This document shows positions 1 through 17,623 of a stretch of 64,000 nt of DNA, piece by piece. Below the pieces are notes generated by a model. That model did not search any database and had not been told where the DNA came from. It saw only the letters and a list, made by a program, of their open reading frames with translations. Source of the stretch: Antedon mediterranea (Eukaryota; Echinodermata; Crinoidea; Comatulida; Antedonidae). Position 1 is the first letter of the stretch. Each line of letters starts with the position of its first letter. The position numbers and the translations under genes were made by a program. The stretch is from assembly GCF_964355755.1 (NCBI RefSeq), contig NC_092673.1, forward strand, positions 34,605,648-34,669,647. Direction: 5' to 3'.

Positions 1-54
1 AAATAATAACTTAAAAAGTTTTTGTATATTAAAATGGTATACGATAAAAATTAA

Positions 55-126
55 GGCACTGGCTGGATTTGAACCAGGGATCTCTTGTTTACTAGACAGG
101 CACTTTAACCGCTACGCCACAGCACC
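55..126 (-). tRNA. tRNA-Thr(AGT), unit 1
   Basis: Full length. 5' end GGTGCTG gives wobble pairs in the acceptor; the T stem has one mismatch. Near-identical copies lie at 3355 and 7018. Confidence 0.8.
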
Positions 127-209
127 TTGCTGTAATGCTGAATTACGTTTAAAAAGAAAATAACTTAAAGAAGTTTTGGTAAATTGAACTTGTATACGAT
201 CAAAATTAA

Positions 210-281
210 GGCACTGCCCAGATTTGAACCAGGGATCTCCTGTTTACTAGACAGGAGCTGTAACCGCTAAGCCACAGCGCC
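210..281 (-). tRNA. tRNA-Thr(AGT), unit 2
   Basis: Full length. The D loop carries TTACAGC instead of TTAAAGC, and the D-arm/anticodon junction base is changed. Confidence 0.75.
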
Positions 282-363
282 TTGCTGTAATTTTGAATTA
301 CGTTAAAAAAAATAATAATGAAAAAACATTTTGTATATTAAAATGGTATACAATAAAAATAAA

Positions 364-422
364 GGCACTGCCCGGATTTGAACCGAGGATCTCCTGTTTA
401 CTAGACGCTAAGCCACAGCGCC
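364..422 (-). pseudogene. tRNA-Thr(AGT) pseudogene, unit 3
   Basis: Only 59 nt: 13 nt are deleted between the anticodon loop and the D arm, so the 5' half of the anticodon stem is gone. Confidence 0.85.
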
Positions 423-504
423 TTACTGTAATGCTGAATTACGTTAAGAAAAATAATAACTTAAAAAGTTTTTGTATATTAAAATGGTATACAATAAAAA
501 TCAA

Positions 505-576
505 GGCAGTGCCCGGATTTGAACCCGGGATCTCCTGTTTACAAGACAGGCGCTTTAACCGCTAAGCAACAGCGAC
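505..576 (-). tRNA. tRNA-Thr(TGT), unit 4
   Basis: Full length, but the acceptor (GTCGCTG against CACTGCC) has two mismatches; function is doubtful. Confidence 0.65.
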
Positions 577-658
577 TTGCTGTAATTTTGATTTACGTTA
601 AAAAAAATAATAATGAAAAAACATTTTGTATATTATAATGGTATATGATAAAAATTAA

Positions 659-730
659 GACAGCGCCCGGATTTGAACCGGGGATCTCCTGTTTACAAGA
701 CAGGCGCTTTAACCGCTAAGCAACAGCGCC
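659..730 (-). tRNA. tRNA-Thr(TGT), unit 5
   Basis: Full length. The 3' strand CGCTGTC pairs imperfectly with GGCGCTG. Copies in the same order lie at 2179 and 14969. Confidence 0.7.
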
Positions 731-812
731 TTCCTGTATTGCTTAATTACGTTAAGAAAAATAATAACTAAAAAACTTTTTGTATATTAAAATGGTATAC
801 GATGGATATTAA

Positions 813-866
813 GGCACTGATTGGATTTGAACCGGGGATCTCCTGTTTACTAGACAGGCGCTTTAA
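813..866 (-). pseudogene. tRNA-Thr(AGT) pseudogene, unit 6
   Basis: Keeps the 3' acceptor strand, T arm and anticodon arm but lacks the 5' acceptor strand and most of the D arm, so the A box is lost. The same truncation recurs at 2333, 7788 and 15122. Confidence 0.85.
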
Positions 867-950
867 GCTTGCTGTAATGATGAATTCGGTTAAAAAGATA
901 GTAACTGAAAAAACGTTTTGTATGTTAAAATGGTATACGATAAAAATGAA

Positions 951-1022
951 GGCACTGCCCGGATTTGAACCAAGAATCTCCTGTTTACAAGACAGGCGCT
1001 TTAACCGCTAAGCCACAGCGCC
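951..1022 (-). tRNA. tRNA-Thr(TGT), unit 7
   Basis: Full length; T stem CTTGG/CCGGG held by G-U pairs. Confidence 0.8.
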
Positions 1023-1101
1023 TTGCTGTAATGCTGACTACCTTAAAAAAAAATAACTGAAAAACATTTTGTATATTAAAATGGTATACAATAAAAATAA
1101 A

Positions 1102-1173
1102 GGCACTGCCCGGATTTGAACCGGGGATCTCCTGTTTACTAGACAGGCGCTTTAACCGCTAAGCCACAGCGCC
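1102..1173 (-). tRNA. tRNA-Thr(AGT), unit 8 (reference copy)
   Basis: All four stems pair, with one G-U at acceptor position 4-69. I used this copy as the AGT reference; unit 46 at 6864 is identical. Confidence 0.92.
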
Positions 1174-1254
1174 TTACTGTAGTTTTGAATTACGTTAACA
1201 AAATAATAATGAAAAAACATTTTGTATATTAAAATGGTATACGATAAAAATGAA

Positions 1255-1326
1255 GGCCCTGCCCGTATTTGAATCAGGGATCTCCTGTTTACAAGACAGG
1301 CGCTTTAACCGCTAAGCCACAGCGCC
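1255..1326 (-). tRNA. tRNA-Thr(TGT), unit 9
   Basis: Full length; 3' strand CAGGGCC and one T-stem mismatch. Confidence 0.75.
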
Positions 1327-1408
1327 TTGCTGTAATGCTGAATTACGTTAAAAAAATAATAACTTAAAAAAGTTTTTGTAAATTAAACTGGTATACGATC
1401 AGAATTAA

Positions 1409-1480
1409 GGCACTACCCGGATTTGAACCAGGGATCTCCTGTTTACTAGACAGGCACTTTAACCGCTAAACCACAACGCC
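1409..1480 (-). tRNA. tRNA-Thr(AGT), unit 10
   Basis: Full length; 5' end GGCGTTG, D arm GGTTTAGC. Confidence 0.82.
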
Positions 1481-1563
1481 TTCCTGTATTGCTTAATTAC
1501 GTTAAGAAAAATAATAACTTAAAAAAGTTTTGGTAAATTGAACTGGTATACGATCAAAATTAA

Positions 1564-1635
1564 GGCACTGCCCGGATTTGAACCGGGGATCTCCTGTTTA
1601 CAAGACAGGCGCTTTAACCGCTAAGCAACAGCACC
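1564..1635 (-). tRNA. tRNA-Thr(TGT), unit 11
   Basis: Full length; 5' end GGTGCTGTTGC, an unusual T at position 9 that is shared by many TGT copies. Confidence 0.82.
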
Positions 1636-1717
1636 CTCCTGTATTGCTTGATTACGTTAAGAAAAATAATAACTGAAAAACATTTTGTTTAATAAAATGG
1701 TATACGATAAAAATTAA

Positions 1718-1789
1718 GGCACTGGCTGGAGTTGAAGCGGGGATCTCTTGTTTACTAGACAGGGGCTTTAACCAATAAGCCACAGCGCC
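1718..1789 (-). tRNA. tRNA-Thr(AGT), unit 12
   Basis: Full length; the T-loop side reads TTCAACTCC and the D loop CTTATTGG. One T-stem base is altered relative to the copy at 4125. Confidence 0.72.
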
Positions 1790-1870
1790 TTGCTGTAATT
1801 TTGAATTACGTTAAAAAAATAATAATTAAAAAACATTTTGTATATTAAAATGGTATACGATAAAAATGAA

Positions 1871-1942
1871 GGCACTGCCCGGATTTGAACCAGGGATCTT
1901 CTGTTTACTAGACAGGCGCTTTAACCGCTAACCCACAGCGCC
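1871..1942 (-). tRNA. tRNA-Thr(AGT), unit 13
   Basis: Full length; D arm GGGTTAGC. Confidence 0.8.
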
Positions 1943-2024
1943 TTACTGTAGTTCTGAATTACGTTAAGAAAAATAATAACTTAAAAAGTTTTTGTATATT
2001 AAAATGGTATACAATAAAAATCAA

Positions 2025-2096
2025 GGCACTGCCCGGATTTGAACCGGGGATCTCCTGTTTACAATACAGGCGCTTTAACCGCTAAGCAACAGCGAC
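2025..2096 (-). tRNA. tRNA-Thr(TGT), unit 14
   Basis: Full length; anticodon loop ATTGTAA (position 32 changed) and 5' end GTCGCTG. Confidence 0.7.
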
Positions 2097-2178
2097 TTGC
2101 TGTAATTTTGATTTACGTTAAAAAAAATAATAATGAAAAAACATTTTGTATATTATAATGGTATATGATAAAAATTAA

Positions 2179-2250
2179 GACAGCGCCCGGATTTGAACCG
2201 GGGATCTCCTGTTTACAAGACAGGCGCTTTAACCGCTAAGCAACAGCGCC
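2179..2250 (-). tRNA. tRNA-Thr(TGT), unit 15
   Basis: Same sequence class as unit 5, 1520 bp away. Confidence 0.7.
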
Positions 2251-2332
2251 TTCCTGTATTGCTTAATTACGTTAAGAAAAAAAATAACTAAAAAACGTTT
2301 TGTATATTAAAATGGTATACGATGGATATTAA

Positions 2333-2388
2333 GGCACTGATTGGATTTGAACCGGGGATCTCCTGTTTACTAGACAGGCGCTTTAACC
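2333..2388 (-). pseudogene. tRNA-Thr(AGT) pseudogene, unit 16
   Basis: Truncated before the D arm, like unit 6. Confidence 0.85.
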
Positions 2389-2470
2389 TTGCTGTAATGA
2401 TGAATTCGGTTAAAAAGATAGTAACTGAAAAAACATTTTGTATATTAAAATGGTATACGATAAAAATAAA

Positions 2471-2542
2471 GGCCCTGCACAGATTTGAACCGGGGATCTC
2501 CTGTTTACAAGACAGGCGCTTTAACCGCTAAGCCACAGCGCC
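2471..2542 (-). tRNA. tRNA-Thr(TGT), unit 17
   Basis: Full length; 3' strand CAGGGCC and a weakened T stem. Confidence 0.75.
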
Positions 2543-2621
2543 TTGCTGTACTGCTGACTACCTTAAAAAAAAATAACTGAAAAACGTTTTGTATATTAAA
2601 ATGGTATACGATAAAAATTAA

Positions 2622-2693
2622 GGCACTGGCTAGAGTTGAACCGGGGATCTCTTGTTTACTAGACAGGCACTTTAACCGCTAATCCACAGCGCC
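2622..2693 (-). tRNA. tRNA-Thr(AGT), unit 18
   Basis: Full length; T-arm side TTCAACTCT, D arm GGATTAGC. Recurs at 6285. Confidence 0.72.
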
Positions 2694-2775
2694 TTGCTGT
2701 AATTTTGATTTACGTTAAAAAAAATAATAATTAAAAAACATTTTGTATATTATAATGGTATATGATAAAAATTAA

Positions 2776-2846
2776 GGCACCACCAGGATTTGAACTGGGA
2801 TCTCCTGTTTACTAGACAGGCGCTTTAACCGCTAAACCACACCGTC
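2776..2846 (-). tRNA. tRNA-Thr(AGT)-like, 71 nt, unit 19
   Basis: One nucleotide short at the variable/T-arm junction, and the acceptor (GACGGTG against GGTGCC) pairs poorly. Probably decayed. Sister copies at 5821 and 6439. Confidence 0.5.
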
Positions 2847-2930
2847 TTGCTGTAATTCTGAATTACGTTTAAAAAAATAATAACCTAAAAAAGTTTTTGG
2901 TAAATTAAACTGGTATACGATCTAAATTAA

Positions 2931-3002
2931 GGCACTGCCCGGATTTGAACCGGGGATCTCCTGTTTACAAGACAGGCGCTTTAACCGCTAAGCCACAGCA
3001 CC
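2931..3002 (-). tRNA. tRNA-Thr(TGT), unit 20
   Basis: Full length; 5' end GGTGCTGTGG, other stems as in the reference copy. Confidence 0.87.
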
Positions 3003-3085
3003 TTCATGTATTGCTTAATTACGTTAAATAAAATAATAAATTCAAAACGTTTTTGTATATTAAAATGGTGTACGATAAAAATTGA

Positions 3086-3146
3086 GGCACTGCCCTGATT
3101 TGAACCAGGGATCTCCTGTTTACAAGACAGGCACTTTAACGGCTAA
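3086..3146 (-). pseudogene. tRNA-Thr(TGT) pseudogene, unit 21
   Basis: The 5' acceptor strand is replaced by spacer; same break as unit 45 at 6749. Confidence 0.85.
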
Positions 3147-3200
3147 AAATTATAATTAAAAAACATTTTGTATATTAAAATGGTATACGATAAAAATAAA

Positions 3201-3272
3201 GGCACTGCCCGGATTTGAACCCGGGATCTCCTGTTTACTAGACAGGCGCTTTAACCGCTAAGACACAGCGCC
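3201..3272 (-). tRNA. tRNA-Thr(AGT), unit 22
   Basis: Full length; one D-stem change (GTCTTAGC). Confidence 0.8.
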
Positions 3273-3354
3273 TTACTGTAATGCTGAATAACGTTAAGAA
3301 AAATAATAACTTAAAAAGTTTTTGTATATTAAAATGGTATACGATAAAAATTAA

Positions 3355-3426
3355 GGCACTGGCTGGATTTGAACCAGGGATCTCTTGTTTACTAGACAGG
3401 CACTTTAACCGCTACGCCACAGCACC
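3355..3426 (-). tRNA. tRNA-Thr(AGT), unit 23
   Basis: Same sequence class as unit 1. Confidence 0.8.
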
Positions 3427-3509
3427 TTGCTGTAATGCTGAATTACGTTTAAAAAGAAAATAACTTAAAAAAGTTTTGGTAAATTGAACTTGTATACGAT
3501 CAAAATTAA

Positions 3510-3581
3510 GGCACTGCCCAGATTTGAACCAGGGATCTCCTGTTTACTAGACAGGCGCTGTAACCGCTAAGCCACAGCGCC
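3510..3581 (-). tRNA. tRNA-Thr(AGT), unit 24
   Basis: Like unit 2 but with the normal base at the D/anticodon junction. Confidence 0.78.
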
Positions 3582-3663
3582 TTGCTGTAATTTTGATTTA
3601 CGTTAAAAAAAATAATAATGAGAAAACATTTTGTATATTATAATGGTATACGATAAAAATGAA

Positions 3664-3735
3664 GGCACTGCCCGGATTTGAACCGGGGATCTCCTATTTA
3701 CAAGACAGGTGCTTTAACCGCTAAGCCACAGCGCC
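3664..3735 (-). tRNA. tRNA-Thr(TGT), unit 25
   Basis: Full length; anticodon stem CCTGT/ATAGG with one G-U pair. Confidence 0.82.
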
Positions 3736-3815
3736 TTGCAGTAATGCTGACTACCTTAAAAAAAAAATAACTGAAAAACGTTTTGTATATTAAAATGGTA
3801 TACAATAAAAATCAA

Positions 3816-3887
3816 GGCACTGCCCGGATTTGAACCAGGGATCTCCTGTTTACTAGACAGGCACTTTAACCGCTAAACCACAACGCC
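3816..3887 (-). tRNA. tRNA-Thr(AGT), unit 26
   Basis: Full length; 5' end GGCGTTG. Confidence 0.82.
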
Positions 3888-3970
3888 TTCCTGTATTGCT
3901 TAATTACGTTAAGAAAAATAATAACTTAAAAAAGTTTTGGTAAATTGAACTGGTATACGATCAAAATTAA

Positions 3971-4042
3971 GGCACTGCCCGGATTTGAACCGGGGATCTC
4001 CTGTTTACAAGACAGGCGCTTTAACCGCTATGCAACAGCACC
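3971..4042 (-). tRNA. tRNA-Thr(TGT), unit 27
   Basis: Full length; D arm GCATAGCGG. Confidence 0.8.
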
Positions 4043-4124
4043 CTCCTGTATTGCTTAATTACGTTAAGAAAAATAATAACTGAAAAACATTTTGTTTAAT
4101 AAAATGGTATACGATAAAAATTAA

Positions 4125-4196
4125 GGCACTGGCTGGAGTTGAACCGGGGATCTCTTGTTTACTAGACAGGCGCTTTAACCAATAAGCCACAGCGCC
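4125..4196 (-). tRNA. tRNA-Thr(AGT), unit 28
   Basis: Full length; D loop CTTATTGG, T-arm side TTCAACTCC. Confidence 0.77.
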
Positions 4197-4277
4197 TTGC
4201 TGTAATTTTGAATTACGTTAAAAAAATAATAATGAAAAAACATTTTGTATATTAAAATGGTATACGATAAAAATGAA

Positions 4278-4352
4278 GGCACTGCCCGGATTTGAACCGA
4301 GAATCTCCTGTTTACTACTAGACAGGCGCTTTAACCGCTAAGCCACAGCGCC
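4278..4352 (-). tRNA. tRNA-Thr-like with duplicated AGT anticodon, 75 nt, unit 29
   Basis: Three extra nucleotides lie in the anticodon loop, which reads CTAGTAGTAA: AGT occurs twice in tandem in a 10-nt loop. The other arms are intact. A slippage product, probably non-functional. Confidence 0.7.
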
Positions 4353-4433
4353 TTACTGTAGTTTTGAATTACGTTAACAAAATAATAATGTAAAAACATT
4401 TTGTATATTAAAATGGTATACGATAAAAATGAA

Positions 4434-4505
4434 GGCCCTGCCCGGATTTGAACCGGGGATCTCCTGTTTACAAGACAGGCGCTTTAACCGCTAAGCCACA
4501 GCGCC
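4434..4505 (-). tRNA. tRNA-Thr(TGT), unit 30
   Basis: Full length; all stems as in the reference except CAGGGCC at the 3' acceptor strand. Confidence 0.85.
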
Positions 4506-4587
4506 TTGCTGTAATGCTGAATTACGTTAAAAAAATAATAACTTAAAAAAGTTTTTGTAAATTAAACTGGTATACGATCAGAATTAA

Positions 4588-4659
4588 GGCACTGCCCGGA
4601 TTTGAACCAGGGATCTCCTGTTTACTAGACAGGCACTTTAACCGCTAAACCACAACGCC
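4588..4659 (-). tRNA. tRNA-Thr(AGT), unit 31
   Basis: Full length; 5' end GGCGTTG, T stem CCTGG/CCGGG. Confidence 0.82.
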
Positions 4660-4742
4660 TTCCTGTATTGCTTAATTACGTTAAGAAAAATAATAACTTA
4701 AAAAAGTTTTGGTAAATTGAACTGATATACGATCAAAATTAA

Positions 4743-4814
4743 GGCACTGCCCGGATTTGAACCGGAGATCTCCTGTTTACAAGACAGGCGCTTTAACCGC
4801 TAAGCAACAGCAAC
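4743..4814 (-). tRNA. tRNA-Thr(TGT), unit 32
   Basis: Full length; 5' end GTTGCTG leaves a mismatch at acceptor position 2. Confidence 0.72.
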
Positions 4815-4896
4815 CTCCTGTATTGCTTAATTACGTTAAGAAAAATAATAACTGAAAAACATTTTGTTTAATAAAATGGTATACGATAAAAATTAA

Positions 4897-4968
4897 GGCA
4901 CTGGCTGGAGTTGAACCGGGGATCTCTTGTTTACTAGACAGGCGCTTTAACCGCTAAACCACAACGCC
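4897..4968 (-). tRNA. tRNA-Thr(AGT), unit 33
   Basis: Full length; GGCGTTG 5' end combined with the TTCAACTCC T-arm type, a mosaic of units 31 and 28. Confidence 0.77.
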
Positions 4969-5051
4969 TTCCTGTATTGCTTAATTACGTTAAGAAAAAT
5001 AATAACTTAAAAAAGTTTTGGTAAATTGAACTGGTATACGATCAAAATTAA

Positions 5052-5123
5052 GGCACTGCCCGGATTTGAACCGGGGATCTCCTGTTTACAAGACAGGCGC
5101 TTTAACCGCTAAGCAACAGCACC
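5052..5123 (-). tRNA. tRNA-Thr(TGT), unit 34
   Basis: Full length; 5' end GGTGCTGTTGC. Confidence 0.82.
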
Positions 5124-5205
5124 CTCCTGTATTGCTTAATTACGTTAAGAAAAATAATAATTAAAAAACATTTTGTATATTAAAATGGTATACGATAAGA
5201 ATGAA

Positions 5206-5277
5206 GGCACTGCCCGGATTTGAACTGGGGATCTCCTGTTTACAAGACAGGCGCTTTAACCTCTAAGCCACAGCGCC
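5206..5277 (-). tRNA. tRNA-Thr(TGT), unit 35
   Basis: Full length; D loop TTAGAGG, one T-stem change. Confidence 0.8.
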
Positions 5278-5359
5278 TTGCTGTAATGCTGAATTACGTT
5301 AAAAAAATAATAACTTAAAAAAGTTTTTGTAAATTAAACTGGTATACGATCAGAATTAA

Positions 5360-5431
5360 GGCACTGCCCGGATTTGAACCAGGGATCTCCTGTTTACTAG
5401 ACAGGCACTTTAACCGCTAAACCACAACGCC
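5360..5431 (-). tRNA. tRNA-Thr(AGT), unit 36
   Basis: Full length; 5' end GGCGTTG. Confidence 0.82.
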
Positions 5432-5511
5432 TTGCTGTAATGCTGACTACCTTAAAAAAAAAATAACTGAAAAACGTTTTGTATATTAAAATGGTATACA
5501 ATAAAAATCAA

Positions 5512-5583
5512 GGCACTGCCCGGATTTGAACCGGGGATGTCCTGTTTACAAGACAGGCGCTTTAACCGCTAAGCAACAGCGCC
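5512..5583 (-). tRNA. tRNA-Thr(TGT), unit 37
   Basis: Full length; variable region ACATC instead of AGATC. Confidence 0.8.
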
Positions 5584-5666
5584 CTTCCTGTATTGCTTAA
5601 TTACGTTAAGAAAAATAATAATTGAAAAACATTTTGTATAATAAAATGGTATACGATAAAAATTAA

Positions 5667-5738
5667 GGCACTGGCTAGAGTTGAACCGGGGATCTCTTGT
5701 TTACTAGACAGACACTTTAACCGCTAATCCACAGCGCC
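5667..5738 (-). tRNA. tRNA-Thr(AGT), unit 38
   Basis: Full length; T-arm side TTCAACTCT, anticodon stem 5' strand weakened. Confidence 0.7.
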
Positions 5739-5820
5739 TTGCTGTAATTTTGATTTACGTTAAAAAGAATAATAATTAAAAAACATTTTGTATATTATAA
5801 TGGTATATGATAAAAATTAA

Positions 5821-5891
5821 GGAACCACCAGGATTTGAACTGGGATCTCCTGTTTACTAGACAGGCGCTTTAACCGCTAAACCACACCGTC
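5821..5891 (-). tRNA. tRNA-Thr(AGT)-like, 71 nt, unit 39
   Basis: Same decayed 71-nt class as unit 19, with a further acceptor change (3' end TTCC). Confidence 0.48.
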
Positions 5892-5975
5892 TTGCTGTAA
5901 TTCTGAATTACGTTTAAAAAAATAATAACCTAAAAAAGTTGTTGGTAAATTAAACTAGTATACGATCTAAATTAA

Positions 5976-6047
5976 GGCACTGCCCGGATTTGAACCGGGG
6001 ATCTCCTGTTTACAAGACAGGCGCTTTAACCGCTAAGCCACAGCGCC
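5976..6047 (-). tRNA. tRNA-Thr(TGT), unit 40
   Basis: Differs from the AGT reference (1102) only in the anticodon: the cleanest TGT counterpart. Confidence 0.9.
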
Positions 6048-6130
6048 TTCATGTATTGCTTAATTACGTTAAATAAAATAATAAATTCAAAACGTTTTTG
6101 TATATTAAAATGGTGTACGATAAAAATTGA

Positions 6131-6202
6131 GGCACTGCCCTGATTTGAACCAGGGATCTCCTGTTTACAAGACAGGCACTTTAACGGCTAAGCCACAGCG
6201 CC
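6131..6202 (-). tRNA. tRNA-Thr(TGT), unit 41
   Basis: Full-length version of the sequence that is truncated in units 21 and 45; D loop AGCCGTT. Confidence 0.8.
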
Positions 6203-6284
6203 TTACTGTATTGCTTAATTACGTTAAGAAAAATAATAATTGAAAAACATTTTGTATAATAAAATGGTATACGATAAAAATTAA

Positions 6285-6356
6285 GGCACTGGCTAGAGTT
6301 GAACCGGGGATCTCTTGTTTACTAGACAGGCACTTTAACCGCTAATCCACAGCGCC
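6285..6356 (-). tRNA. tRNA-Thr(AGT), unit 42
   Basis: Same class as unit 18, 3663 bp away. Confidence 0.72.
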
Positions 6357-6438
6357 TTGCTGTAATTTTGATTTACGTTAAAAAAAATAATAATTAAAAA
6401 ACATTTTGTATATTATAATGGTATATGATAAAAATTAA

Positions 6439-6509
6439 GGAACCACCAGGATTTGAACTGGGATCTCCTGTTTACTAGACAGGCGGTTTAACCGCTAAAC
6501 CACACCGTC
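6439..6509 (-). tRNA. tRNA-Thr(AGT)-like, 71 nt, unit 43
   Basis: Decayed 71-nt class; additional D-loop change (AACCGCC). Confidence 0.48.
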
Positions 6510-6593
6510 TTGCTGTAATTCTGAATTACGTTTAAAAAAATAATAACCTAAAAAAGTTTTTGGTAAATTAAACTGGTATACGATCTAAATTAA

Positions 6594-6665
6594 GGTACTG
6601 CCCGGATTTGAACCGGGGATCTCCTGTTTACAAGACAGGCGCTTTAACCGCTAAGCCACAGCGCC
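6594..6665 (-). tRNA. tRNA-Thr(TGT), unit 44
   Basis: Full length; 3' end CAGTACC. Confidence 0.83.
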
Positions 6666-6748
6666 TTCATGTATTGCTTAATTACCTTAAATAAAATAAT
6701 AAATTCAAAACGTTTTTGTATATTAAAATGGTGTACGATAAAAATTGA

Positions 6749-6809
6749 GGCACTGCCCTGATTTGAACCAGGGATCTCCTGTTTACAAGACAGGCACTTT
6801 AACGGCTAA
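6749..6809 (-). pseudogene. tRNA-Thr(TGT) pseudogene, unit 45
   Basis: Same break as unit 21, inherited by segmental duplication. Confidence 0.85.
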
Positions 6810-6863
6810 AAATTATAATTAAAAAACATTTTGTATATTAAAATGGTATACGATAAAAATAAA

Positions 6864-6935
6864 GGCACTGCCCGGATTTGAACCGGGGATCTCCTGTTTA
6901 CTAGACAGGCGCTTTAACCGCTAAGCCACAGCGCC
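6864..6935 (-). tRNA. tRNA-Thr(AGT), unit 46
   Basis: Identical to the reference copy at 1102. Confidence 0.92.
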
Positions 6936-7017
6936 TTACTGTAATGCTGAATAACGTTAAGAAAAATAATAACTTAAAAAGTTTTTGTATATTAAAATGG
7001 TATACGATAAAAATTAA

Positions 7018-7089
7018 GGCACTGGCTGGATTTGAACCAGGGATCTCTTGTTTACTAGACAGGCACTTTAACCGCTACGCCACAGCACC
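7018..7089 (-). tRNA. tRNA-Thr(AGT), unit 47
   Basis: Same class as units 1 and 23. Confidence 0.8.
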
Positions 7090-7172
7090 TTGCTGTAATG
7101 CTGAATTACGTTTAAAAAGAAAATAACTTAAAAAAGTTTTGGTAAATTGAACTTGTATACGATCAAAATTAA

Positions 7173-7244
7173 GGCACTGCCCAGGTTTGAACCAGGGATC
7201 TACTGTTTACTAGACAGGCGCTGTAACCGCTAATCCACAGCGCC
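7173..7244 (-). tRNA. tRNA-Thr(AGT), unit 48
   Basis: Full length; B box changed to GGTTCAAACC, variable region AGTAG. Confidence 0.75.
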
Positions 7245-10355: not shown

Positions 10356-10676
10356 GCATATAACCATATAACTACATAACGCTGTGGTGTGTGTCACACA
10401 TTGTGGCTTCTTAATTAAACAAATTAATTAACAAAAAATTAAAAATCCGGCTCTATAGCTTTGAGGACATGTCCCTGTAGTATGTTCATGCCAAATCCCA
10501 GCTCAATACTATAACGAATAAGGGAGGAGTAGTACTTTAAAAATCGCACTTTTTACTCAATAGTGTCCAGATGGAGGAAGAGAAGGAGAAAATGAGTAAG
10601 TACTAGACTCGGGTACCCCGAGTAATAATAACTGAAAAACATTTTGTTTAATAAAATGGTATACGATAAAAATTAG

Positions 10677-10748
10677 GGCACTGGCTGGAGTTGAACCGGG
10701 GATCTCTTGTTTACAAGACAGGCGCTTTAACCGCTAAACCACAACGCC
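10677..10748 (-). tRNA. tRNA-Thr(TGT), unit 61
   Basis: TGT anticodon in the backbone of the AGT mosaic type of units 33 and 57 (TTCAACTCC, GGCGTTG): an apparent anticodon switch within one sequence class. Confidence 0.77.
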
Positions 10749-10831
10749 TTCCTGTATTGCTTAATTACGTTAAGAAAAATAATAACTTAAAAAAGTTTTG
10801 GTAAATTGAACTGGTATACGATCAAAATTAA

Positions 10832-10903
10832 GGCACTGCCCGGATTTGAACCGGGGATCTCCTGTTTACAAGACAGGCGCTTTAACCGCTAAGCAACAGC
10901 ACC
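10832..10903 (-). tRNA. tRNA-Thr(TGT), unit 62
   Basis: Same class as units 34 and 58. Confidence 0.82.
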
Positions 10904-10985
10904 CTCCTGTATTGCTTAATTACGTTAAGAAAAATAATAATTAAAAAACATTTTGTATATTAAAATGGTATACGATAAAAATGAA

Positions 10986-11057
10986 GGCACTGCCCGGATT
11001 TGAACCAGGGATCTCCTGTTTACTAGACAGGCGCTTTAACCGCTAAGCCACAGCGCC
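10986..11057 (-). tRNA. tRNA-Thr(AGT), unit 63
   Basis: Same class as unit 59. Confidence 0.88.
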
Positions 11058-11138
11058 TTACTGTAGTTTTGAATTACGTTAACAAAATAATAATGAAAAA
11101 ACATTTTGTATATTAAAATGGTATACGATAAAAATAAA

Positions 11139-11210
11139 GGCCCTGCACGGATTTGAACCGGGGATCTCCTGATTACAAGACAGGCGCTTTAACCGCTAAG
11201 CCACAGCACC
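11139..11210 (-). tRNA. tRNA-Thr(TGT), unit 64
   Basis: Full length; one mismatch at the anticodon-stem base (CCTGT/TCAGG). Confidence 0.75.
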
Positions 11211-11295
11211 TTGCTGTAATGCTGAATTACGTTAAAAAAATAATAACTTAAAAAAGTTTTTGTAAATTAAAATGGTATACGATGGATATTAAGAA

Positions 11296-11350
11296 GGCAC
11301 TGATTGGATTTGAACCAGGGATCTCCTGTTTAGTAGAAAGGCACTTTAAG
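11296..11350 (-). pseudogene. tRNA-Thr-derived pseudogene, unit 65
   Basis: Truncated before the D arm. The loop reads CTACTAA, which would be anticodon ACT (serine), in a mispaired stem. Confidence 0.8.
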
Positions 11351-11353
11351 CAA

Positions 11354-11425
11354 GGCGCTGTGGCTTAGCGGTTAAAGTGCCTGTCTAGTAAACAGGAGAT
11401 CCCCGGTTCAAATCCGGGCGGTGCC
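11354..11425 (+). tRNA. tRNA-Thr(AGT), unit 66, inverted
   Basis: The only full-length plus-strand copy. Stems pair well (GGCGCTG/CGGTGCC). It is followed on the plus strand by TTAATTTTTATC, the normal terminator context. Confidence 0.87.
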
Positions 11426-11507
11426 TTAATTTTTATCTTATACCATTATAATATACAAAATTTTTTTTAATTATTATTTTTTTTAACGTAAATCAAAATT
11501 ACAGCAA

Positions 11508-11530
11508 GGCGCTGTGGTTAAGCGGTTACA
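11508..11530 (+). pseudogene. tRNA-Thr 5' fragment, inverted
   Basis: Only the 5' acceptor strand and D arm of a plus-strand copy remain before the sequence switches back to minus-strand units. Confidence 0.75.
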
Positions 11531-11603
11531 ATGGTGAACTACGTTAAAAAAATAATAACTAAAAAACGTTTTGTATATTCAAATGGTATACAACAAAAAT
11601 TAA

Positions 11604-11675
11604 GGCACTGCAGAGATTTGAACCGGGGATCTCCTGTTTACAAGACAGGCACTTTAAGCGCCAAGCCACAGCGCC
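11604..11675 (-). tRNA. tRNA-Thr(TGT), unit 67
   Basis: Full length; D loop GGCGCTTAAAG and weakened T stem. Confidence 0.72.
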
Positions 11676-11756
11676 TTATTACAATGCTGAACTACGTTTT
11701 AAAAAAAATAACTAAAAAACGTTTTGTATATTCAAATGGTATACAATAAAAATTAA

Positions 11757-11828
11757 GGCACTGCCCGGATTTGAACCAGGGATCTCCTGTTTACAAGACA
11801 GGCGCTTTAACCGCTAAGCCACAGCGCC
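11757..11828 (-). tRNA. tRNA-Thr(TGT), unit 68
   Basis: Full length; T stem CCTGG/CCGGG, otherwise reference. Confidence 0.88.
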
Positions 11829-11910
11829 TTCATGTATTGCTGAATTACGTTAAGAAAAAAAATAACTTAAAAAGTTTTTGTATATTAAAACGGTATACAA
11901 TAAAAACCAA

Positions 11911-11982
11911 GGCATTGCCCGGATTTGAACCGGGGATCTCCTGTTTACAAGACATGCACTTTAACCGCTAAACCACAGCATC
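11911..11982 (-). tRNA. tRNA-Thr(TGT), unit 69
   Basis: Full length; 5' end GATGCTG pairs with CAATGCC with one mismatch. Recurs at 16490. Confidence 0.75.
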
Positions 11983-12063
11983 TTGCTGTAATTTTGATTT
12001 ACGTTAAAAAAATATTAATGAAAAAACATTTTGTATATTATAATGGTATATGATAAAAATTAA

Positions 12064-12135
12064 GGCACCGCCCGGATTTGAACCAGGGATCTCCTATTTA
12101 CTTGACAAGCGCTGTAACCGCTAAGCCACAGCGCC
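12064..12135 (-). tRNA. tRNA-Thr(AGT), unit 70
   Basis: Full length; loop CAAGTAA and anticodon stem CTTGT/ATAGG with two wobble pairs. Confidence 0.7.
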
Positions 12136-12193
12136 TCGCTGTAATTTTAATTTACGTTAAAAAAAATAATAATGAAAAAACATTTTGTATATT

Positions 12194-14939
12194 TTTTTAT
12201 TTATTTATTTATTTAGGTTTAAAAACACATACAAAACAGCAGCCATTGGCTGATAACGTTTGTTTACAATCAATATACATAAATAATTAAAAGTAAAAGA
12301 GGAACAATTACAAACAGCATAGAAAAATAACTATATATTATAAAACACAAAATACAATATTATTCGTTCATAAAATTGAGCACGTCATTATTATTATTAT
12401 TATTTAAGATTATTATTAATATATACATTATTAAAATTATTATAATAAAAGGTCGAAACGGCATCTAGAAAGTGAGAAATAATCATGGAAATCAAACCTA
12501 TATCAGTTAGCATTAATGAACTTAACAATCGTAGGTATGGCAGACCTTTGGTATCGTTCAGTTTTACACCTGGGGGGAAGGAGACTTCCGGTACTAGTTG
12601 TATTAGACCTAAGGGTTCTCTTCTGCCCGCGGCAAGGAGGTAGCATGTCTCGAAAACAGTTGGACTTGAGTAACCCCCTGCCAAAGGACAACACAAGAGT
12701 GTCTCTCCTTGCCCCGAGAGAAGGTAACCCTGTAACCTCTAGGGCATTGTCATAGGAAATGTAGGTAGCACCTAACATTATTCGACATGCTCTTTTCTGG
12801 ATGGTCTCAATGCTGTTGGCCATTTTCTTGGTAATAGCACCATGCCATACCTGGCAAGCGTATTCCAAGATGGGCCTAATGTAGGAAGTGTACACAGTGA
12901 TTAGGTCATCAAGAACAACATTGACTTTTTTTAAAATACATAGAGCAAAGAGTCTTCTTGATGCCCGTGAGACAATATCTTGGGTGTTGAGGTCCCACTT
13001 CAAATTACTTTGAATTATGACGCCAAGCAATCTCATATGTTCTACTACATCAAGGTTGGAGCCATTTAGATTAAAAATGGGAGACGCAGCGTCAACGCTG
13101 ATGTCTTTCAAAAAGTTAACGGTCATTATATGGCACTTAGAGGGCTTTGGGATCATATTATTCTTTCTACACCAATCATTAACATCATTAAGCATCTCTT
13201 GCATCGTAGGCCTAGCTCCTTTACTAACTACCTCTCCCAGGGTGAGGTCGTCTACGTATTTCCACCTTCTGCAGCTTCCGACACAGGCATCATTAATGAG
13301 CACCAAGAATAACACGGGACCAAGCTTAGTCCCTTGCTGGACGCCACAGGTTATCTTACTAGAAGTAGATGTACATCCAGTATATTTGGTATTCATGGTG
13401 CGATCGGTGAGGAAGCTGCAGATGGTGGGAATTATAGACGACCTCACCCCGATGTCGATTAACTTCTTTATAAGAATAGAGTGGTCAACAAGGTCAAAAG
13501 CTTTGGTGAAATCAATTGCGCACAGATTAACGTAAGTTCCACCACACTCAAGATCTTTGAGCACCGAGTCAATTAAGCTTATAAGATAATGGGAGGTCGA
13601 TGATTTCTTCCTGCTTCCAAATTGTCTAGAATCTAAGCTAATATTTATATCCTCCACGATCCACTTAACTAAAAACGATTCAAAGACTCTGGCTAATATG
13701 GGGGTAAGGGAAATCGGCCTTAAGTCGTTAAGTGATTTAACACTATTAACCTTAGGAATTGGAATGGCGGTTGCTTTTTTCCAGGCGCTAGGGAATGTTC
13801 CTTCTTTAAGGGCACAATTAAAAATATCAGCAATTGGTGGAGCTAATTCAGGGGCAAAGTCTCTAATTAACCGTGCAGGTAGGTCCTCGGGGTGACCTGC
13901 CTTTATTGGAACTAATTTGCTAAGTAATGCTTTTACTTGCCCGACAAAAATATATGGGGGTTTATCATTTGCTGGCAAATAGGCAGGCAACTTTTTAATA
14001 TCTAATGGTGTTAACTTATTGCAAATACTGGAGAAATGGCTGTTAATGTTCTCCGCAATATCTTCATCGGAATGGCCAGGCATACTAAATGTAGTATGTT
14101 TTTTCATGTTACAGAGTTGTTTAATCCCCTTATGCCATTTGGCTGCATTGTTAGACTTTAGATTCTTTAGGGAATTGCGATAATACGATTGTTTGGCTTC
14201 TCTAATTCCAGCTTCCACCATGTTACGGAGATTCCTCCATTCCTGCGTTTTACCATGCTTTTCATACGATTTCTGTCGAGCATCTAGTAGATTCCGAACT
14301 TTAGATGTCATCCATGGTCGATCTGCTTCTCTCACACGCTTAGTAATAACTGGAAACTTATCAGAGTATGCTCCATTTAGCAGAGAGATAAACTCGTCGG
14401 TTTTTGACTCAGCATCAACTATATTGTACACGTTATCCCATTCATATGCTGTGACCCACTGTCCGAAACATCTTACAGAGCTGTCACGGTACGGTTGAGT
14501 TTTAATTTTATGACACATATTTCGCGGAACTTCTGTTTTAGGATGTATCAGGATGGCGTTGTGATCACTGCGTCCTAGTGGGGCTAGTCGTTTGGGTGCA
14601 GTATATATATCTGGATAGTTCATGAAAACTTTATCAAGAATTGCACCCTTCCTGGTTGGAAAGTTTACTACTTGGGAAAATCCTACACGCGTTTCAATGT
14701 CGTCGGTGTTTAGCTGATTAAAATCACCTAGCACAAAAATGGGTGCATAACTATCTACCGAACGAATGGTGTCGATAGTTTCAATGATATGTTCAATCAG
14801 ACTATCCCCAGCTGGAGCCGACGGCGGGAAGTAAATGCCTCCAAAGTAGAAATGATGACCTTGTTTACATCTGCGTGGCAGGGTGGCTTTTACCCAGAGA
14901 CATTCGAAGCAACAATCCGCATGTCCAATTACAGGATCG
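12194..14939 (-). mobile_element. 5'-truncated CR1/L2-like non-LTR retrotransposon
   Basis: A minus-strand LINE copy inserted in a Thr spacer. Its 3' end is a (TAAA)n tail at about 12194-12215. ATATT occurs at both edges (12189-12193 and 14940-14944), a short target-site duplication; removing the element restores a normal spacer. The left part (12216-12502) is 3' UTR. The 5' part of the element, including the start of the endonuclease, is missing. The open reading frame suggests a recent insertion. Confidence 0.88.
12503..14938 (-). CDS. Endonuclease/reverse transcriptase ORF2 of non-LTR element (5' truncated)
   Basis: An open frame of about 811 residues from the truncated 5' edge to the stop. 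The C-terminal half of an APE endonuclease comes first, with GDFN at about residues 71-74 and SDHN near 123. The reverse transcriptase spans about 385-640, with RPISL, the AIDFTKAFD block and catalytic YVDD at about 561-564, where many CR1/L2 relatives have FADD. The tail ends with IQKRACRIM and RSAIPTIVKFIN, as in CR1-like ORF2. It would nick DNA and prime reverse transcription of element RNA. No frameshift is visible, but the missing N-terminus makes this copy unable to move by itself. Its clade is not resolved. Confidence 0.9.
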   Translation of the reverse strand, partial: DPVIGHADCCFECLWVKATLPRRCKQGHHFYFGGIYFPPSAPAGDSLIEHIIETIDTIRSVDSYAPIFVLGDFNQLNTDDIETRVGFSQVVNFPTRKGAILDKVFMNYPDIYTAPKRLAPLGRSDHNAILIHPKTEVPRNMCHKIKTQPYRDSSVRCFGQWVTAYEWDNVYNIVDAESKTDEFISLLNGAYSDKFPVITKRVREADRPWMTSKVRNLLDARQKSYEKHGKTQEWRNLRNMVEAGIREAKQSYYRNSLKNLKSNNAAKWHKGIKQLCNMKKHTTFSMPGHSDEDIAENINSHFSSICNKLTPLDIKKLPAYLPANDKPPYIFVGQVKALLSKLVPIKAGHPEDLPARLIRDFAPELAPPIADIFNCALKEGTFPSAWKKATAIPIPKVNSVKSLNDLRPISLTPILARVFESFLVKWIVEDINISLDSRQFGSRKKSSTSHYLISLIDSVLKDLECGGTYVNLCAIDFTKAFDLVDHSILIKKLIDIGVRSSIIPTICSFLTDRTMNTKYTGCTSTSSKITCGVQQGTKLGPVLFLVLINDACVGSCRRWKYVDDLTLGEVVSKGARPTMQEMLNDVNDWCRKNNMIPKPSKCHIMTVNFLKDISVDAASPIFNLNGSNLDVVEHMRLLGVIIQSNLKWDLNTQDIVSRASRRLFALCILKKVNVVLDDLITVYTSYIRPILEYACQVWHGAITKKMANSIETIQKRACRIMLGATYISYDNALEVTGLPSLGARRDTLVLSFGRGLLKSNCFRDMLPPCRGQKRTLRSNTTSTGSLLPPRCKTERYQRSAIPTIVKFINAN

Positions 14940-14968
14940 ATATTATAATGGTATATGATAAAAATTAA

Positions 14969-15040
14969 GGCAGCGCCAGGATTTGAACCGGGGATCTCCT
15001 GTTTACAAGACAGGCGCTTTAACCGCTAAGCAACAGCGCC
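14969..15040 (-). tRNA. tRNA-Thr(TGT), unit 71
   Basis: Full length; corresponds to unit 5, but with GGCAGCG rather than GACAGCG on the plus strand. Confidence 0.72.
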
Positions 15041-15121
15041 TTCCTGTATTGCTTAATTACGTTAAGAAAAATAATAACTAAAAAACGTTTTGTATATTAA
15101 ATGGTATACGATGGATATTAA

Positions 15122-15177
15122 GGCACTGATTGGATTTGAACCGGGGATCTCCTGTTTACTAGACAGGCGCTTTAACC
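15122..15177 (-). pseudogene. tRNA-Thr(AGT) pseudogene, unit 72
   Basis: Same truncation as units 6, 16 and 52. Confidence 0.85.
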
Positions 15178-15259
15178 TTGCTGTAATGATGAATTCGGTT
15201 AAAAAGATAGTAACTGAAAAAACGTTTTGTATATTAAAATCGTATACGATAAAAATGAA

Positions 15260-15331
15260 GGCACTGCCCGGATTTGAACCGAGAATCTCCTGTTTACAAG
15301 ACAGGCGCTTTAACCGCTAAGCCACAGCGCC
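15260..15331 (-). tRNA. tRNA-Thr(TGT), unit 73
   Basis: Corresponds to unit 7; the T stem uses G-U pairs (TCGG side). Confidence 0.8.
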
Positions 15332-15411
15332 TTGCTGTAATGCTGACTACCTTAAAAAAAAAATAACTGAAAAACGTTTTGTATATTAAAATGGTATACA
15401 ATAAAAATAAA

Positions 15412-15483
15412 GGCACTGCCCGGATTTGAACCGGGGATTTCCTATTTACTAGACAGGCGCTTTAACCGCTAAGCCACAGCGCC
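15412..15483 (-). tRNA. tRNA-Thr(AGT), unit 74
   Basis: Corresponds to unit 8 with small changes at the variable region and anticodon stem. Confidence 0.8.
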
Positions 15484-15564
15484 TTACTGTAGTTTTGAAT
15501 TCCGTTAACAAAATAATAATGAAAAAACATTTTGTATATTAAAATGGTATACGATAAAAATGAA

Positions 15565-15636
15565 GGCCCTGCCCGGATTTGAACCGGGGATCTCCTGTTT
15601 ACAAGACAGGCGCTTTAGCCGCTAAGCCACAGCCCC
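15565..15636 (-). tRNA. tRNA-Thr(TGT), unit 75
   Basis: Corresponds to unit 9; 5' end GGGGCTG restores an acceptor pair, D loop GGCTAAAGC. Confidence 0.8.
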
Positions 15637-15718
15637 TTGCTGTAATGCTGAATTACGTTAAAAAAATAATAACTTAAAAAAGTTTTTGTAAATTTAACTG
15701 GTATACGATCAGAATTAA

Positions 15719-15790
15719 GGCACTGCCCGGATTTGAACCAGGGATCTCCTGTTTACTAGACAGGCACTTTAACCGCTAAACCACAACGCC
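15719..15790 (-). tRNA. tRNA-Thr(AGT), unit 76
   Basis: Corresponds to unit 10. Confidence 0.82.
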
Positions 15791-15873
15791 TTTCTGTATT
15801 GCTTAATTACGTTAAGAAAAATAATAACTTAAAAAGGTTTTGGTAAATTGAACTGGTATACGATCAAAATTAA

Positions 15874-15945
15874 GGCACTGCCCGGATTTGAACCGGGGAT
15901 CTCCTGTTTACAAGACAGGCGCTTTAACCGCTAAGCAACAGCACC
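15874..15945 (-). tRNA. tRNA-Thr(TGT), unit 77
   Basis: Corresponds to unit 11. Confidence 0.82.
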
Positions 15946-16028
15946 CTCCTGTATTGCTTAATTACGTTAAGAAAAATAATAACTTAAAAAAGTTTTGGTA
16001 AATTGAACTGGTATACGATAAAAATTGA

Positions 16029-16100
16029 GGCACTGGCTGGAGTTGAACCGGGGATCTCTTGTTTACTAGACAGGCGCTTTAACCGCTAAGCCACAGCGCC
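16029..16100 (-). tRNA. tRNA-Thr(AGT), unit 78
   Basis: Corresponds to unit 12 but with the normal D loop, and 3' flank starting CTCAATTTTT. Confidence 0.78.
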
Positions 16101-16181
16101 TTGCTGTAATTTTGAATTACGTTAAAAAAATAATAATTAAAAAACATTTTGTATATTAAAATGGTATACGATAAAAATAAA

Positions 16182-16253
16182 GGCCCTGCACGGATTTGAA
16201 CCGGGGATCTCCTGTTTACAAGACAGGCGCTTTAACCGCTAAGCCACAGCGCC
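16182..16253 (-). tRNA. tRNA-Thr(TGT), unit 79
   Basis: Full length; same class as unit 64 without its stem mismatch. Confidence 0.82.
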
Positions 16254-16335
16254 TTGCTGTAATGCTGAATTACGTTAAAAAAATAATAACTTAAAAAAGT
16301 TTTTGTAACTTAAAAAGGTATACAATAAAAATTAA

Positions 16336-16407
16336 GGCACTGCCCGGATTTGAACCAGGGATCTCCTGTTTACAAGACAGGCGCTTTAACCGCTAAGCCA
16401 CAGCGCC
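16336..16407 (-). tRNA. tRNA-Thr(TGT), unit 80
   Basis: Same tRNA sequence as unit 68. Confidence 0.88.
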
Positions 16408-16489
16408 TTCATGTTTTGCTGAATTACGTTAAGAAAAAAAATAACTTAAAAAGTTTTGGTATATTAAAACGGTATACAATAAAAATCAA

Positions 16490-16561
16490 GGCATTGCCCG
16501 GATTTGAACCGGGGATCTCCTGTTTACAAGACATGCACTTTAACCGCTAAACCACAGCATC
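16490..16561 (-). tRNA. tRNA-Thr(TGT), unit 81
   Basis: Same class as unit 69. Confidence 0.75.
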
Positions 16562-16642
16562 TTGCTGTAATTTTGATTTACGTTAAAAAAATATTAATGA
16601 AAAAACATTTTGTATATTATAATGGTATATGATAAAAATTAA

Positions 16643-16714
16643 GGCACCGCCCGGATTTGAACCAGGGATCTCCTGTTTACTAGACAGGCGCTTTAACCGC
16701 TAAGCCACAGCGCC
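16643..16714 (-). tRNA. tRNA-Thr(AGT), unit 82
   Basis: 3' strand CGGTGCC gives a fully paired acceptor; corresponds in order to unit 70. Confidence 0.87.
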
Positions 16715-16795
16715 TTGCTACAATGCTGAACTACGTTAAAAAAATAATAACTAAAAAACGTTTTGTATATTTAAATGGTATACAATAAAAATTAA

Positions 16796-16867
16796 GGCAC
16801 TGTCCGGATTTGAACCGGGGTTCTCCTGTTTACAAGACAGGCACTTTAACCACTAAGCCACAGGGCC
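16796..16867 (-). tRNA. tRNA-Thr(TGT), unit 83
   Basis: Full length; 5' end GGCCCTG, T stem partly weakened. Confidence 0.75.
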
Positions 16868-16949
16868 TTCATGTATTGTTTAATTACGTTAAATAAATAA
16901 TAAATTTAAAACGTTTTTGTATATTAAAATGGTCTACAATAAAAATTGA

Positions 16950-17021
16950 GGCACTGCCCTGATTTGAACCAGGGATCTCCTGTTTACAAGACAGGCGCTT
17001 TAACCGCTAAGCCACAGCGCC
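16950..17021 (-). tRNA. tRNA-Thr(TGT), unit 84
   Basis: T stem CCTGG/TCAGG; related to unit 41 with a normal D loop. Confidence 0.83.
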
Positions 17022-17102
17022 TTGCTGTAATTTTGAATTACGTTAAAAAAATAATAATTAAAAAACATTTTGTATATTAAAATGGTATACGATAAAAATG
17101 AA

Positions 17103-17174
17103 GGCACTGCCCGGATTTGAACCAGGGATCTCCTGTTTACAAGACAGGCGCTTTAACCGCTAAGCCACAGCGCC
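17103..17174 (-). tRNA. tRNA-Thr(TGT), unit 85
   Basis: Same tRNA sequence as unit 68. Confidence 0.88.
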
Positions 17175-17254
17175 TTGCTGTAATGCTGACTACCTTAAAA
17201 AAAAAATAACTGAAAAACGTTTTGTATATTAAAATGGTATACAATAAAAGTAAA

Positions 17255-17326
17255 GGCACTGCCCGGATTTGAACCGGGGATCTCCTGTTTACTAGACAGG
17301 CGCTTTAACCGCTAAGCCACAGCGCC
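17255..17326 (-). tRNA. tRNA-Thr(AGT), unit 86
   Basis: Identical to the reference tRNA; the 5' flank has one change (CAT for AAG). Confidence 0.92.
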
Positions 17327-17408
17327 ATGCTGTAATGCTGAATTACGTTAAAAAAATAATAACTTAAAAAAGTTTTTGTAAATTAAACTGGTATACGATC
17401 AGAATTAA

Positions 17409-17480
17409 GGCACTGCCCGGATTTGAACCAGGGATCTCCTGTTTACTAGACAGGCACTTTAACCGCTAAGCCACAGCGCC
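17409..17480 (-). tRNA. tRNA-Thr(AGT), unit 87
   Basis: Full length; T stem CCTGG/CCGGG. Confidence 0.87.
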
Positions 17481-17559
17481 TTGCTGAAATGCTGACTACC
17501 TTAAAAAAAAATAACTGAAAAACGTTTTGTATATTAAAATGGTATACAATAAAAATAAA

Positions 17560-17623
17560 GGCACTGCCCGGATTTGAACCGGGGATCTCCTGTTTACTAG
17601 ACAGGCACTTTAACCGCTAAGCC
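17560..17623 (-). pseudogene. tRNA-Thr(AGT) pseudogene, unit 88 (array edge)
   Basis: The 5' acceptor strand is missing; unique sequence begins at once. This is the right boundary of the array. Confidence 0.85.

Follow-up and report, generated by a model that had tools for sequence, protein, structure and literature searches.

Transfer RNA (tRNA) gene families are usually treated as dispersed genes that evolve by birth and death. Homogeneous tandem tRNA repeats are described as uncommon outside Entamoeba (PMC4041453), and mostly homogeneous pairs of adjacent genes are reported from drosophilids, Tetrahymena and Monosiga (PMC2888827). Here we describe a stretch of 64,000 nucleotides (C4:34605648-34669647, hereafter the window) whose left part is an array of threonine (Thr) tRNA genes with one gene per unit. 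An initial annotation of the window had called such arrays rare, which is in line with both papers. From the analysis that follows, we consider it rather probable that the array, which spans 55 kb and is one of several in the genome that are each devoted to one amino acid, is a satellite-like tRNA gene bank in which constraint on the single copy is relaxed and a minority of units are intact, probably transcribable genes.

The oocyte-type tandem tRNA units of Xenopus are reportedly about 3 kb long with a mixed gene content, whereas the units described here hold one gene per ~150 bp. The likeness lies in the presence of tandem tRNA arrays in an animal, those of Xenopus being switched on at embryonic genome activation (PMC11500080). 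Entamoeba likewise has head-to-tail tandem arrays, several per genome and of unclear function; nearly every tRNA gene there belongs to an array, a unit can hold as many as five tRNA genes and, in two species, short tandem repeats separate the genes (PMC2652664). Unlike in Entamoeba, each unit here carries one tRNA, genes remain outside the arrays and the lineage is animal-like. In plants, too, tandem tRNA genes stand beside dispersed ones, as with the 27 Pro genes and 27 Ser-Tyr-Tyr units of Arabidopsis, and synonymous anticodons occur within tandem pairs, those for Thr and Ala among them; in most tissues the Ser-Tyr-Tyr cluster is silent and carries methylation (PMC12308677, PMC12652284), and methylation silences one Arabidopsis tandem cluster that becomes active again in root tips (PMC12308677). 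Against these numbers, and against the clusters of up to 110 genes in a survey of 50 plant species (PMC12652284), stand 304 Thr units in one array here and arrays for eight tRNA types within a single genome. Nematostella and teleosts have clusters of at least fifty tRNA genes, but neighbouring genes in Nematostella and zebrafish mostly differ in amino acid (PMC2888827), whereas each array here is of one amino acid. The human repeat at 1q23.3 is also tandem and tRNA-bearing, with 7.3-kb units, five tRNA genes and a CTCF site (PMC4041453). The word 'tandem' is absent from the available part of a paper on planarian tRNAs (PMC7962491), and in a literature search that covered largely journals outside subscription we recognised no paper describing this set of arrays. 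The present case stands apart by its single-gene unit of satellite size, by its copy number and by the recurrence of the arrangement across tRNA types within a single genome.

We searched the window with nhmmer, using as query a 73-nt tRNA consensus taken from the window itself. The 90 matches comprise 88 Thr-type units, the number given in the initial annotation, and two tRNA-Val genes; five first-order Markov copies of the window gave no match at E 0.1. The units occupy positions 54-17631 (the last match ends at 17626), and nhmmer found no further profile match from there to 64000. They fall into three segments on the minus strand, each recovered by nhmmer, ARAGORN and Rfam: units 1-60 (54..9054), units 61-70 (10676..12135) and units 71-88 (14968..17631), which form the right end of the array. 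The sole inverted unit of the 88 is unit 66 (11354..11426, plus strand; nhmmer, ARAGORN), a Thr(AGT) gene with no stem mismatch. Ten units are truncated or chimeric and 78 were classed as full length, one more than had been counted before. The nearly constant spacing and the T runs resembling RNA polymerase III terminators that had been described both hold: unit-to-unit distances are 150-157 bp in 76 of 87 spacings, Tandem Repeats Finder returns a period of 154 bp, and 78 units (69 of them full length) are followed within 30 nt by four or more T in a row.

ARAGORN predicts 81 tRNA genes in the window, 79 of them within the array span (74 Thr, four Val and one of undetermined type, with an insertion in its anticodon loop); the other two, a Thr gene at 30174 and an Asp gene at 60685, are absent from the Rfam matches. 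The gathering score of the Rfam tRNA model RF00005 is reached at 79 places, all within 1-17623, by 78 Thr-type units and one Val gene, and 57 of the 79 score at least 50 bits (counted by eye). With 78 of 88 Thr units passing, the case allowed for in the annotation, that covariance scores might mark nearly all units as pseudogenes, does not apply. Among the 78 full-length units the anticodon is TGT in 41 and AGT in 37, and all 21 stem pairs are matched in 32.

The array proved real but larger than had been described, as it is cut by the left edge of the window. On the chromosome it extends over 55.2 kb (C4:34568075-34623273) and has 304 units (144 + 132 + 10 + 18), 303 of them on the minus strand. 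These are head-to-tail units of one amino acid, as in a homotypic tandem array, and their near-nucleosomal 154-bp period and turnover in blocks are those of satellite DNA. The extended stretch gave 309 profile matches, the remaining five being one Val gene and four isolated Thr-like copies to the left of the array, two full genes and two partial.

Exact matches to the Thr anticodon arm, for which the counts are complete genome-wide, number 192, of which 190 lie within C4:34515648-34625647. The array accounts for 188 (187 by subtraction plus the inverted unit), and the other four are two isolated genes beside it, one gene on C1 and one on C6. The isolated neighbours, Thr-AGT genes 5.7 and 6.9 kb to the left, have the short D loop of the array, and one of them matches array units over 118 bp (87% overall) that span the tRNA and 45 bp of 3' flank. 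The tRNAs on C1 and C6 share one sequence, in which the D loop is longer by one base; in a non-exhaustive search that skipped very common words, they matched a three-unit query over 82 bp, hardly beyond the tRNA. Because the neighbours share its D loop, and one of them also its 3' flank, we infer that the array grew from a local Thr gene. We rejected an origin from a tRNA-derived short interspersed element, since the copies are not dispersed (2 of the 192 matches lie outside this part of C4) and the C1 and C6 matches hardly exceed the tRNA.

Homotypic arrays were also found for Met, Lys-TTT, Lys-CTT, Cys, Asp, Ala and Gly tRNAs. The pattern searches used here detect anticodon arms of 18-22 letters rather than whole genes, and the pattern is the sole basis for the Gly array and for most matches outside arrays; the Asp and Gly patterns had no exact match and were run with one mismatch allowed, and the Ala pattern gave one match in a reversed control. 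The Met pattern, with one mismatch, has 102 matches: two forward, on C1 and at C4:3.2 Mb, and 100 reverse, of which every one of the 98 listed falls within C4:34513484-34527652, 78-92 kb to the left of the window, where the profile search gives 101 matches. On C8, a Lys-TTT array has 243 profile matches and, in 110 kb, 193 ARAGORN genes, 182 of them within ~42 kb. Lys-CTT has, among the matches listed, 24 on C3 (period 146 bp in the stretch analysed), 25 on C7 and ten on C2 in groups of 1, 3, 1 and 5, and 93 of 98 Cys matches lie on C2 within 17 kb. Three further types were probed blind. For Asp, 54 of 67 matches lie in 10 kb of C11, where ARAGORN predicts 57 Asp genes, and two of the 13 outside are members of the Gly array; for Gly, 74 of 84 matches lie in 29 kb of C7; and for Ala, all but 11 of the listed matches (284 in total) lie, with gaps, at C4:14.63-15.02 Mb, two 8-kb samples of which hold 42 genes with AGC, TGC and CGC intermixed. 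The canonical Thr-TGT body, the fourth blind probe, forms no array; its matches number seven, three of which fall in a stretch of 0.6 kb. An array was thus found for eight of nine types probed (three of four probed blind), five of the eight having been met before probing, and most types also have a few matches besides the array.

Turnover of the units proceeds through duplication of whole blocks. Two stretches that abut, of 3,566 and 1,935 bp and 5.5 kb in all, are 99.94-99.95% identical, and other duplicated blocks in the Thr array measure 0.8-2.2 kb at 98.4-99.9% identity. Distinct sequences make up 149 of 226 clean monomers, and there are 126 distinct tRNA sequences among 250 full-length units (those on the minus strand, isolated neighbours included). 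Parts of the array have a 307-bp period in Tandem Repeats Finder; a strict AGT/TGT dimer was considered and rejected, as the anticodon order is irregular and units at lag 2 are no more alike than at lag 1 (0.857 each, whole array).

The reading that competes most seriously with a gene bank is that of a silent, selfish satellite derived from a tRNA, spread by unequal exchange alone, without a role in translation, and retaining its tRNA because the copies are young. Recent divergence is what it would lead one to expect: in young copies, mutations have accumulated in the tRNA no less freely than in the spacer. With reciprocal pairs counted twice, the ratio of tRNA to spacer divergence between nearest neighbours is 1.46 for Thr, 1.54 for Met and 1.06 for Lys-TTT; it is 0.99 for Lys-CTT (19 monomers) and, in the opposite direction, 0.54 for Cys (14 monomers). 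Many units are also imperfect, for 195 of the 250 fail at least one test of pairing, conserved bases, anticodon and terminator and 55 pass all of them. TTTT lies within 20 nt downstream of 225 units, and T occurs at positions +4 to +8 after the tRNA in 77-100% of 226 monomers per position.

What argues against a silent satellite is that long-lived variants are depleted in the tRNA. Overall diversity in tRNA and spacer is 0.094 and 0.163 in Thr, 0.083 and 0.096 in Lys-TTT, and 0.047 and 0.078 in Met, and comparison of rare with common variants across these three arrays, stratified by array and base class, gives a Mantel-Haenszel odds ratio (OR) of 2.28 for tRNA against spacer (p = 9e-4). By class, the contrast with spacer is significant only in the part of the tRNA outside the anticodon loop and promoter boxes (OR 2.09, p = 0.003) and borderline in the anticodon loop (OR 4.46, p = 0.06). 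Within the Thr tRNA, diversity is 0.13 in the acceptor and D stems, 0.17 in the T stem and 0.05 in the anticodon stem, with 0.16 in the spacer; at anticodon positions 35-36 it falls to 0.013.

The anticodons themselves also speak against silence. We surveyed 691 units of seven arrays, the Gly array being outside the survey (Thr 251, Lys-TTT 187, Met 100, Asp 57, Ala 52, Cys 25, Lys-CTT 19). A Thr anticodon is present in 247 of the 251 Thr units (138 TGT, 108 AGT, 1 GGT), the remainder being three TCT and one ATT. Only synonymous anticodon changes reach high frequency: a synonymous anticodon other than the commonest of its array occurs in 145 of the 691 units, reaching 43% in Thr and 62% in Ala, whereas amino-acid-changing or nonsense anticodons occur in 17 and make up at most 11% of any array. 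Counted by hand as single-step types, with the double-step TTA of Lys-CTT omitted, six of ten possible synonymous anticodons were seen and six of 53 non-synonymous ones (p = 0.002). This pattern is suggestive of weak selection against mis-sense tRNAs, as it is the one such selection would produce, and selection of that kind would require transcription at some stage. Among the exceptions, two Lys-CTT units carry TTA (stretch L033, 1225-1298 and 2752-2825) and one Cys unit carries TCA (stretch L031, 1700-1776), and these would be nonsense suppressors if transcribed; in the elongator-Met array (C4:34513484-34527652), 7 of 100 units have changed to AAT.

The CpG signal cuts both ways. All ten CpG positions of the Thr tRNA show transitions, at a mean frequency of 0.109 against 0.025 at the 32 other C or G positions (p = 7e-4) and with no excess of transversions, as methylated DNA would show; to the right of the array, CpG stands at 0.58 of expectation and GpC at 0.96. 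The CpG transition excess is, however, missing from the Thr spacer (four CpG positions, p = 0.77) and the Lys-TTT tRNA (p = 0.51) and not significant in the Met tRNA (p = 0.12), whereas the Lys-TTT spacer does show it (p = 0.04). On this evidence the Thr array may be methylated in the germline.

Several results weigh against a bank of genes under selection. Taken array by array, the contrast between rare and common variants is significant in Thr (p = 0.017) but not in Lys-TTT (p = 0.18) or Met (p = 0.08), and it could be inflated by rare variants that stem from sequencing errors. In the same test the B box behaves like spacer (OR 0.83, p = 0.82) and the A box does not differ significantly from it (OR 1.98, p = 0.15). 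Stem pairing is no better than in shuffled data (0.9271 against 0.9267 for 111 distinct units; 202 of 500 shuffles reach the observed value), and because it is not above the shuffle, folding is not visibly maintained copy by copy. Changed anticodons, amino-acid-changing or nonsense, persist in 7 of 100 Met, 2 of 19 Lys-CTT and 2 of 25 Cys units. The anticodon-type test has few types and treats shared descent as independent, and ATT in Thr, one step from AGT and two from TGT, is counted in it as a single-step non-synonymous type. Compensatory pairing as proof of function was sought by comparison with shuffles and not found.

Of the functions and origins put forward in the initial annotation, a satellite built from a tRNA agrees with the way the array evolves, with its block duplication, its neutral recent divergence and the 55 of 250 full-length units that are intact. 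A contribution to Thr-tRNA supply gains from those intact units, from the avoidance of the tRNA by old variants and from the low frequency of amino-acid-changing anticodons, and loses from the seven canonical Thr-TGT matches and four Thr-AGT copies outside the array; because of these, extra supply is not shown to be needed, and Thr genes elsewhere are equally what a silent satellite would permit. On balance we regard the silent satellite as unlikely, while granting it more weight than a chromatin boundary or an assembly artefact, and prefer that of a gene bank.

A further suggestion of the annotation was a chromatin boundary of RNA polymerase III and TFIIIC. Such a boundary or insulator, in which the binding sites would matter and the tRNA would not, finds some encouragement in the A and B boxes, which number in the hundreds and share one orientation, and in the proposal that a human tRNA tandem repeat serves as a boundary element (PMC4041453). 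Common variants per site, however, amount to 0.36 in the B box and 0.25 in the A box, much as in the rest of the tRNA (0.28; spacer 0.40), and are fewest (0.10) in the anticodon loop, which is not a promoter element. Pure conservation of promoter sites for TFIIIC is unsupported by these counts, and we give a boundary role little credence. An assembly artefact, or unmerged haplotypes inflating the copy number, might be suspected from the 5.5-kb block nearly identical to its neighbour, but it is the least credible explanation of all in view of the 126 distinct tRNA sequences, the interruption of the array by two retrotransposon-type inserts, a mobile element and an inverted unit, and the like arrangement of eight tRNA types at separate sites.

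The gene bank that we favour would go back to a single Thr gene that was duplicated in tandem together with ~80 bp of flank; later duplications of blocks of ~10 to 36 units would have reshaped it, in the manner of unequal exchange. Its intact units would be transcribable by RNA polymerase III, and weak selection would operate at the level of the entire bank, not of the individual copy. In most cells a large part of the array may be quiet and methylated, and, if used at all, it may be a reserve under high tRNA demand. A bolder version, which we hold to be doubtful, is that most isotypes have their own satellite-like array of tens to hundreds of genes, together a second, developmentally silenced set in which synonymous isoacceptors are bred (Thr AGT/TGT, Ala AGC/TGC/CGC), with the genes outside the arrays serving ordinary cells.

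The single-family array described in the annotation is indeed one Thr array, but four tRNA-Val genes and a long interspersed element (LINE) interrupt it. The four Val (AAC) genes, all ARAGORN predictions on the minus strand (9493..9566, 9777..9849, 10000..10073 and 10283..10355), lie in a mobile element at 9082..10629 (minus strand), recognised from copies elsewhere, probe matches and a comparison of ends; the third gene is the only one above the Rfam gathering score, with 46.6 bits. A search with a 171-bp probe yielded 653 candidates, of which 40 were scored; 40 of the 41 matches listed cover nearly all of the probe at 93-100% identity, and the matches listed lie on nine contigs, the window site included. 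Besides the window's element we inspected four copies among these matches, a full copy of 1549 bp on C10 that is 99.5% identical and three partial ones, and observed a hairpin near one end and inverted ends. The copies, on C10, C5, C3 and C6, contain two to four tRNA-Val genes and internal repeats. From these comparisons the Val genes are assigned to an inserted, dispersed mobile element and not to the array proper. Asymmetric inverted ends, a hairpin near one end and dispersed copies characterise Helentron-related non-autonomous elements, and the Val element is perhaps a candidate for this group. Helenus, the tRNA-bearing long terminal repeat elements (PMC10886601), was set aside informally in favour of the Helentron-like reading.

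The second interruption in the window, at 12193..14940 on the minus strand with edges approximate and placed by eye, is a fragment of a LINE-type retrotransposon (Pfam PF00078 RVT_1, E 2e-22). Left of the window the array contains another insert, of 5.1 kb (C4:34589769-34594863), which, judged by eye from open frames of 1045 and 615 residues, appears retrotransposon-like.

In the rest of the window, a second reverse-transcriptase fragment lies directly right of the array (18262-19101). Blocks of a 10-bp repeat at 35704-35837 and 36634-36736, about 800 bp apart and apparently reverse complements, resemble the ends of a DNA transposon, and a 26-bp minisatellite of ~70 copies with strong strand skew occupies 40050-41859. 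Exons of a glycosyl hydrolase 63 (GH63) gene and a possible ITFG2 gene lie at 49525-52690 and 54907-56052; the Pfam matches of the window are strong for GH63 and SUEL-lectin and below the cut-off for Itfg2 (24 against 27 bits), and these matches are the basis for calling the lineage animal-like.

With several independent arrays in one genome, spacer and gene can be compared unit by unit, which allows direct measurement of concerted evolution, of anticodon switching and of the selection that acts on tRNA copies. Array-specific variants would separate the expression of an array from that of the genes elsewhere.

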